The notes under the pieces were generated by a model. It did not search any database. It was not told the DNA's origin and saw only the letters and a list, made by a program, of their open reading frames with translations. Shown piece after piece: positions 21,329 to 27,001 of a stretch of 27,646 nucleotides of DNA. The first letter of the stretch is position 1; each line of letters opens with the position of its first letter. This DNA comes from Saccoglossus kowalevskii (lineage: Eukaryota > Hemichordata > Enteropneusta > Harrimaniidae): the NCBI RefSeq assembly GCF_000003605.2, contig NW_003152252.1, forward strand, positions 121,234-148,879, written 5' to 3'. The translations under genes and the position numbers were made by a program.

Positions 21329-24300
21329 TCAGAGTTCATGGTCGTCAGCATGGTACATTTCACTTAGTAGTCTATATACGTAGGATGGAGCATTCCCTCC
21401 ACTGAAGAATAAAAATAGATAGTTATGAAATTAACAACGTATCAGTTTCAGTATCAGTAATACTGGACTTTGGCCTATCAGCAATGCTTGGTACTAACTG
21501 GATTTTTTTGAAGTGCTCGTAACGTTTGTAATATACGGTATACACTAATGTAAATTTTACTAAATCATCTTTATTTTAATTAAAAAACCACATTTACTGC
21601 ATTTGCAGAGATAACACAGCAATGGTAAATTTCATTGCGATTGGGCCACTTTCAACATTAATTACTAACATTAATTAAAAATCATGAAATGGTCTTCATT
21701 TTAAAAAAAACTTGTCATCACTCACAGAAATGTAAATTTAACATCAGGAAAACATATCGACACCTGGCTAACAATATTTCATCCTTAGCAGTTACCCAGG
21801 ACGGTAGTCGTCATGCAGCGTATGCTCGAATTCAAACAATGCATGCATTGTGTGAGTCGCTATGAGTCCCATATTGAACATGGCGCGGCTCATCGACCAC
21901 CGCCCTTTAATTAACAAGTCACATGATTCAAGTATACTCACAGATTTGATATGAATAGAGTTACAAGTTCAGGGGGCACATAATCGTACACTGGGTTTGC
22001 AATCTGTAGTTTAGATAAAAGTTGTCCTTCTGAAAATTTCATAACTTCGTTGGGAGTTTCCAGCTTGTTGAAAGATTTCTGTTCAAAAAGAGAACATGAA
22101 CAAATTTATCCTAGAGTACACTTTTTTTAAATTACCTCATATGGCATTATGCAAATCAAATGATTAATTATTCATCATAAGTGCTGACACATAGTGCATT
22201 TTGCCACAGAAGTCATATTCATGTTTGGGATAACATAACAGAGCTGTTTGGCCATCCTCCTATCAAATGGCAATTCAATGCGCTATCCTGGCATCAACCA
22301 GGCTTGGTCAAACACGGGGGAAAGATGAGCATTCATTTACTTAGTGGACAGAGGCGGAGTTAATTACCCATGAGCACTTGGTGCAATCCAAGGGATTGAG
22401 CGGTTCCCCTTTAACCATGGTTCCCCCAAAGTTGCATTTGTTAGTGAATGAATTCGGCCAGTGTGTGGTCTGTGGCACACTCACCCAGAGTAAGGGTCAC
22501 CCCTTGTTCAGTCTAAGGTAGGATTTGAACCAACCAGTGACTGTTGATGTTACGCAGAGTGTAATTTGCATAAAATGGACAGGAAGATGGCCCCACAATC
22601 CATTGCGTTCTTCTCATAACCATGGTTTTAATAAAGACTCAATCTTGGACTCCCTAAGATAATGATAACTCAACCAGACTCCCTAAGATGCTAAAAACTC
22701 AATCATAAATACATTTACCTGAATGTTGAATACCGGTAATTCATGATGATAAATATTTTCTTCAGTTGTGATTAGTATTCAACTTACCTGATCTTTAGTA
22801 CATAAATATTCTGGTGACAATTTAAACATCTGTACACATACAATCAGCTGCAAGCAACAAAACACACTATCAAATACTATTTCAAGATTTAACTTTTTTC
22901 AGGTACACAATTTACAGCACAATTTTGTTAATAAAAAGGTATAGACCATTTTGAATCTGGGAAGGGAGGGATTTATACGAAAAAAATGTTGAAACAAAAT
23001 TTCTAGAAAAACTAAACAAGATTCAAAAGTAACACTACCACATCAAAGAATTCAAATGATCTACCCCTTAGTAGAAAATGTTGTATGGTGATGAAAGTTA
23101 CAAACATTGATTACTGTAAAATTTTCGCTTGGAATAAATTTTCGCTGATGGAAAGATTCAGTGAAAATATAGTCCCGCGAATATACCTTTTGTTCCTATA
23201 TTTTTCATTCAACTCGTCAAAAATTAGTAAAAATAAATACCATACAAAACACCCAAAAGTTAATCCAGCAAAAATTAATTGCAGCTATAATAAAGTATTT
23301 TACAGAAAAGTGCATGTACTCACAGGTACTGAATAATGTTTTGCTGCTAGCGCTATAGCATGTGTTCCATTCATTGCTTTCAATCTGCAAATTAACATAG
23401 AAAAATAATATTAATATTGAGTACATATAAATATGATATTTTGAAATGGCAACACCATTTTGATTAAAATCTAATGTAATGTAATATATTTTGATATGAA
23501 AACAAGACTAGCTGTTACATCAGCTGGTTATCAGACTTTGTAAGGACATCAATTAAATAAATGAAATAACATGTGTACCAATGACTTACCCTCCATTTGC
23601 TATGACATTATTTGTACCAATAATGACTTACTCTCCATTTGCCATGACAGTATGTGTACCAATAATGACTTACCCTCCATTTGCCATGACAGTATGTGTA
23701 CCAATGATGACTTACCCTCCATTTGCCATGACAGTATGTGTACCAATAATGACTTAACCTCCATTTGCCATGACAGTATGTGTACCAATAATGACTTAAC
23801 CTCCATTTGCCATGACAGTATGTGTACCAATAATGACTTAACCTCCATTTTCCATAACAGTATGTGTACCAATAATGACTTACCATCCATTTGCCATGAC
23901 AGTATGTGTACCAATGACTTAACCTCCATTTGCCATGACAGTATGTGTACCAATAATGACTTACCCTCCATTTGCCATGACAGTATGTGTACCAATAATG
24001 ACTTACCCTCCATTTGCCATGACAGTATGTGTACCAATGATGACTTACCCTCCATTTGCCATGACAGTATGTGTACCAATAATGACTTAACCTCCATTTG
24101 CCATGACAGTATGTGTACCAATAATGACTTACCCTCCATTTGCCATGACAGTATGTGTACCAATAATGACTTAACCTCCATTTGCCATGACAGTATGTGT
24201 ACCAATAATGACTTACCCACCATTTGCCATGACAGTATGTGTACCAATAATGACTTACCCTCCATTTGCCATGACAGTATGTGTATCAATGATGACTTAC

Positions 24301-27001: not shown

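Follow-up and report, generated by a model that had tools for sequence, protein, structure and literature searches.

An EIF2B2 exon-intron junction repeated as a minisatellite in Saccoglossus kowalevskii, with an in-frame stop at every extra splice donor

When the end of an exon and the beginning of its 5′ splice site are copied many times over into the following intron, which of the resulting donors can the gene use, and how is such an array borne? The question is raised by a 27,646-nt stretch of the genome of the hemichordate Saccoglossus kowalevskii (the window, in what follows), in which one exon of EIF2B2, the gene for eIF2B beta, is followed by a long series of near-identical donors. A sequence-only reading of the window had described this as an exon-intron junction amplified into 21 units, with fourteen extra GTAAGT sites that were regarded as equivalent to the real one, and had noted that tandem donors were familiar to its author as pairs but not as an array of this sort.

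EIF2B2 lies on the minus strand at 21329..27001, where eight exons (a-h) were established from splice sites, the Pfam IF-2B family and a genome search. When joined, the exons form an open frame of 223 codons with a terminal stop and the usual splice sites. The encoded protein matched Pfam IF-2B at 2e-61, and the part derived from exons d and e matched the eIF2B beta chain of PDB 7trj (65/65 residues, 3.3e-24), so that the gene, the exon end and the donor had all been correctly named. The gene is intact over these eight exons and its 5′ end lies beyond the window, on a side where the sequence reads N. We searched the 223-aa protein against the animal's own assembly (572 Mb, 4830 contigs) and obtained eight matches. 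Seven of them were exons b-h at this locus, the 50-nt exon a having no match in this protein search, and the eighth was a weak one on another contig (48 residues, 40% identity) that probably belongs to a related subunit or enzyme. Since the matches comprised the gene's own exons and this one weak piece, EIF2B2 seems to be single-copy; the same search of the assembly found neither a second copy nor a spliced retrocopy that could reveal the choice of donor.

The remainder of the window holds pieces of other genes. C2H2 zinc-finger exon pieces from one or more genes are present at 4529-4711 and 5626-6048 (minus strand), and an exon piece at 15243-15602 (plus strand) matches HABP4/PAI-RBP1 and is thus SERBP1-like; a piece at 16269-16583, glycine/arginine-rich by eye and with no Pfam match, may form the end of the same gene. 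At the window's edge, perfect 42-nt inverted repeats surround 244 nt (27319-27646), resembling a small terminal-inverted-repeat element. Scanning the window for tRNAs and against Rfam (at gathering thresholds) gave no match.

The array begins within the coding sequence. Exon d (24427..24560, minus strand, 134 nt) ends in the sequence from which the repeat derives (24466-24427), its 3′ end reading AAGTCATTATTGGTACACATACTGTCATGGCAAATGGAGG, followed by the donor GTAAGT at 24421..24426. Read on the minus strand, the 42-base repeat unit is made up of the exon's final 40 bases and the GT of the donor. There are 21 full head-to-tail units at 23588..24466, of which one measures 39 nt and the other twenty 42 nt, unit 0 being the coding exon itself. 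An 18-nt partial unit (23570..23587), which shares its 3-nt deletion with the 39-nt unit, closes the array on the intron side. Tandem Repeats Finder (TRF) likewise reported a 42-bp unit in 21.2 copies at 23580-24466 with 95% matches, and, when as many as 3 mismatches were allowed, the last 40 nt of the exon occurred at 20 sites of the window, against a mean of 0.00 in 100 shuffles; the unit missing from these 20 is the one with the 3-nt deletion. The surrounding intron (d/e) spans 23385..24426, or 1042 nt counted from the first donor and, by subtraction, 205 nt from the last; it is of phase 2, and exon e, on its acceptor side, was placed at 23324..23384 by the gene model and homology.

GTAAGT is present at 15/21 unit junctions, namely the true donor and 14 of the 20 downstream junctions (23584..24384, minus strand), and the other six read TTAAGT, having changed G to T at the first intron base (24174, 24090, 23922, 23841, 23799 and 23757). 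The counts of 21 units and of fifteen donors given by the sequence-only reading were therefore exact. In the window as a whole GTAAGT occurs 25 times against 13.25 expected, a number that 1/100 shuffles attained; this is by itself a weak statistic, and what rules out chance is the long unit with its regular period. A separate GTAAGT at 24584-24589 (minus strand), ending 23 nt upstream of exon d, is a possible decoy donor.

A dispersed satellite would show its unit at many sites of the genome. With a two-unit query against the 572-Mb assembly we obtained 12 matches, a lower bound by the search tool's own statement, and 12/12 lay inside the EIF2B2 array; the array is real and occupies a single place in the assembly. 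The window also holds other repeats. At 19493-19786 a 58-bp unit occurs in five near-perfect copies, and its family is spread through the genome (at least 893 matches in the assembly, many of them in long runs on contig C1115), and a 91-nt repeat that is probably a dispersed element occurs, at 95% identity, both downstream of the last EIF2B2 exon (21062-21152) and in an intron (22325-22415).

The reading frame distinguishes the first donor from all the others. Because the exon ends in phase 2, reading through a donor gives GGG TAA (GG|GTAA), the six mutated units giving GGT TAA instead, and each unit boundary thereby sets a TAA in the EIF2B2 frame, a feature that the sequence-only reading overlooked. 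Among the 21 junctions, the first donor alone keeps the frame open. Splicing from the later junctions would add 42 to 837 nt, always a multiple of three, and 20/20 of them lead to the same product, with a stop after 114 of the 223 model codons. From these premature stops it is 38 to 833 nt to the d/e junction and 296 to 1091 nt to the last one. Transcripts with an early stop are subject to nonsense-mediated decay under the exon-junction rule, and at the latter distance (296-1091 nt) those made from later donors are expected to decay. Judged by frame, only the first donor would be productive. We infer its use from the frame alone, which tells only which donor must serve often enough for a working gene.

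Computed strength does not make the same distinction. The computed pairing energy with the 5′ end of U1 was -10.0 kcal/mol for the true donor and for 11/14 extras, and -10.3, -9.1 and -6.9 kcal/mol for the other three; the six mutated junctions reached -6.9 through a shifted pairing, without a GT at the normal place, and the remaining EIF2B2 donors ranged from -5.6 to -13.9. The fifteen donors, described earlier as equivalent, are thus nearly so in U1 pairing but not in outcome, given the early stops at the later junctions. Predicted RNA accessibility was 0.030 at the first donor, 0.0035-0.0752 at the 14 other intact ones and 0.117-0.161 at the six mutated junctions. Across the 21 junctions neither measure favours the first donor, and the winning donor can therefore not be read from the sequence. 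Experiments in print point both ways. In C. elegans unc-73, a donor doublet is described as duplicated 18 nt downstream with the upstream copy mainly used (PMC8865678), whereas SRSF1 has been reported as an activator of intron-proximal donors (PMC5585400), a preference that would shift use toward the non-productive end of the array. With regard to the protection by U1 from early polyadenylation, the d/e intron contains neither AATAAA nor ATTAAA.

Junction minisatellites have been seen before. The units of the VNTR in human CBS serve as alternative donors. Lievers et al. reportedly linked this VNTR, in the title of a 2001 paper, to reduced CBS activity. The 31-bp repeat, placed at exon 13-intron 13 (PMC1395315), is named c.1444_1467+7(16_21) and is present on wild-type chromosomes too (PMC2630376). 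Its unit, like that of EIF2B2, covers the end of an exon and the beginning of a donor (24 exon plus 7 intron nt, as summed from the name; here 40 plus 2), and its 16 to 21 tandem copies compare with 21 full units here. However, the 31-nt unit of CBS is not a multiple of three and is known to be polymorphic in length, whereas the EIF2B2 array lies in another gene, in an invertebrate's genome, and has a 42-nt unit that is a multiple of three, with an in-frame stop at each junction. In human IFI6 the unit is 12 nt and its use lengthens the protein in frame. The minisatellite of this gene (6-16, G1P3) provides several splice donors, two downstream repeat units being described as acting in this way and giving rise to three mRNA species (PMC4526556, citing Turri et al. 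1995). IFI6 and EIF2B2 are alike in having minisatellite units as potential alternative donors, but downstream use, which lengthens the IFI6 protein, would truncate that of EIF2B2. As in CBS and IFI6, the EIF2B2 array is a tandem repeat of minisatellite size, with a 42-nt unit in 21 full copies. The unit is composed of exon end plus 5′ splice site, and the first one is the real junction, as inferred from frame and homology. The exon-intron-junction minisatellite is hence a kind already described, and with these printed precedents the suggestion that such an array had no parallel does not hold. We found no paper joining EIF2B2 with a minisatellite in the open-licence PMC literature. EIF2B2 differs from the CBS and IFI6 descriptions in the stop that comes with each additional donor, and in being another gene.

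The variation among the units looks like that of an ordinary minisatellite, as far as the sequence can tell. The exon unit and the array consensus are the same sequence, which 5/20 other units match at 42/42 positions, the mean identity being 97.2% to the consensus and 94.9% between pairs. Ten unit types, six of which occur once (the 39-nt unit included), are spread through the array. The unit at the intron-side edge (92.9% to the consensus) is among the more diverged, and two inner units are at 90.5% and 92.9%. Counts of identical units at lags 1-14 showed no clear period of a higher-order repeat. With the last three unit columns left out, 3/9 classifiable substitution types were synonymous against 25% expected without constraint, and the copies therefore do not look coding, though with so few events this is a weak test.

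These data suggest a minisatellite that arose by tandem duplication across the exon-intron junction and is tolerated in the intron with no dedicated function, a reading to which we assign a probability of about 0.78. Unit 0 begins with AAGTC, 40 nt before the exon end, and the donor contains AAGT 42 nt away. Slippage or misaligned repair between these two sites could have produced a 42-bp duplication in which the donor was recreated, and further slippage or unequal exchange would have led to growth to 21 units. If the first, exon-side donor is used, the whole array leaves with the intron and the protein is unchanged. Any later donor would preserve length in frame while its donor-made TAA yields one truncated reading frame, and such transcripts would enter nonsense-mediated decay. 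The array may be tolerated because first-donor splicing spares the protein and later-donor products decay, its cost probably being a fraction of wasted transcripts. Most likely it is young and mostly neutral, perhaps leaking some transcripts into decay.

The array could instead be a regulatory poison region, in which the true donor faces competition from the 14 extras and the output of eIF2B beta is set by the balance between productive and decaying transcripts, unit number acting as a dial. The common stop behind each extra donor, the equal U1 pairing of 11/14 extras and the tie between the human CBS VNTR and reduced enzyme activity, as reported in the 2001 title by Lievers et al., all fit this idea. 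However, 6/20 downstream donors have been lost, and donor columns showed no significant extra conservation (variable in 1/6 donor columns against 13/36 others, Fisher p 0.64), nor was the placement of the lost donors unusual (none among junctions 2-6, P 0.13; adjacency, P 0.48), although with so small a number of events these tests are of low power. We consider such regulation unlikely, and the dial itself, by which 14 donors with one stop would set the share of EIF2B2 transcripts sent to decay, very doubtful. If true, array length would tune the level of eIF2B beta and perhaps stress sensitivity.

Alternatively, the assembler may have inflated a few units into many, or collapsed a longer array. 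Tandem arrays are a common site of assembly errors; the assembly is in 4830 contigs and the window contains a gap of 263 N (14044-14306). An error of this kind is nevertheless quite unlikely in view of the ten distinct unit types along the array, of the non-repeated flanks with the gene intact on both sides, and of the array's single location in the assembly, points that argue against a pure artefact and leave the number of units unfixed.

The array might also represent an intermediate of intron gain or exonisation, the copies giving donors and AGs so that parts of the array are spliced as small introns or exons. Intron gain by tandem duplication has been described for ATP2A1, fission yeast genes and potato RdRp (PMC4974935) and in connection with internal repeats of human paralogs (PMC2812944). 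The proposed route starts from tandemly duplicated exon pieces that carry AGGT, in fission yeasts as multiples of 24 bp (PMC4974935), and boundary tandem repeats in the human paralogs may give rise to new introns (PMC2812944). The EIF2B2 array resembles these cases in having tandem copies of exon or boundary sequence with splice signals, but there the new intron was made by the duplication, whereas the EIF2B2 copies lie within an intron that was already there and contribute nothing but donors. The duplicate would have to supply both donor and acceptor, yet the acceptor (23385) lies outside the array and visual inspection shows no pyrimidine tract ahead of the AGs in the unit, which makes this reading highly improbable. 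A coding role for the copies was rejected, open frames being by-products of the 42-nt period, with 4/6 frames of a perfect unit being stop-free because 42 = 3 x 14.

The real array is stop-free in one plus-strand frame only. A 304-aa open frame of nearly all 14-residue repeats runs antisense to EIF2B2 at 23565-24479 (plus strand); its one Pfam match scored 19.7 bits, below the cut-off of 36, and an automatic annotator could mistake it for a gene.

Besides being one more junction minisatellite, this locus sets up a natural competition between many donors, in which one exon is followed by 15 intact sites, 12 of them equal in computed U1 pairing. To our knowledge, the ranking of donors by position has mostly been studied with two-site constructs. 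The flanks of the 15 donors are nearly the same, and counts of junction reads would rank near-identical donors by position alone.
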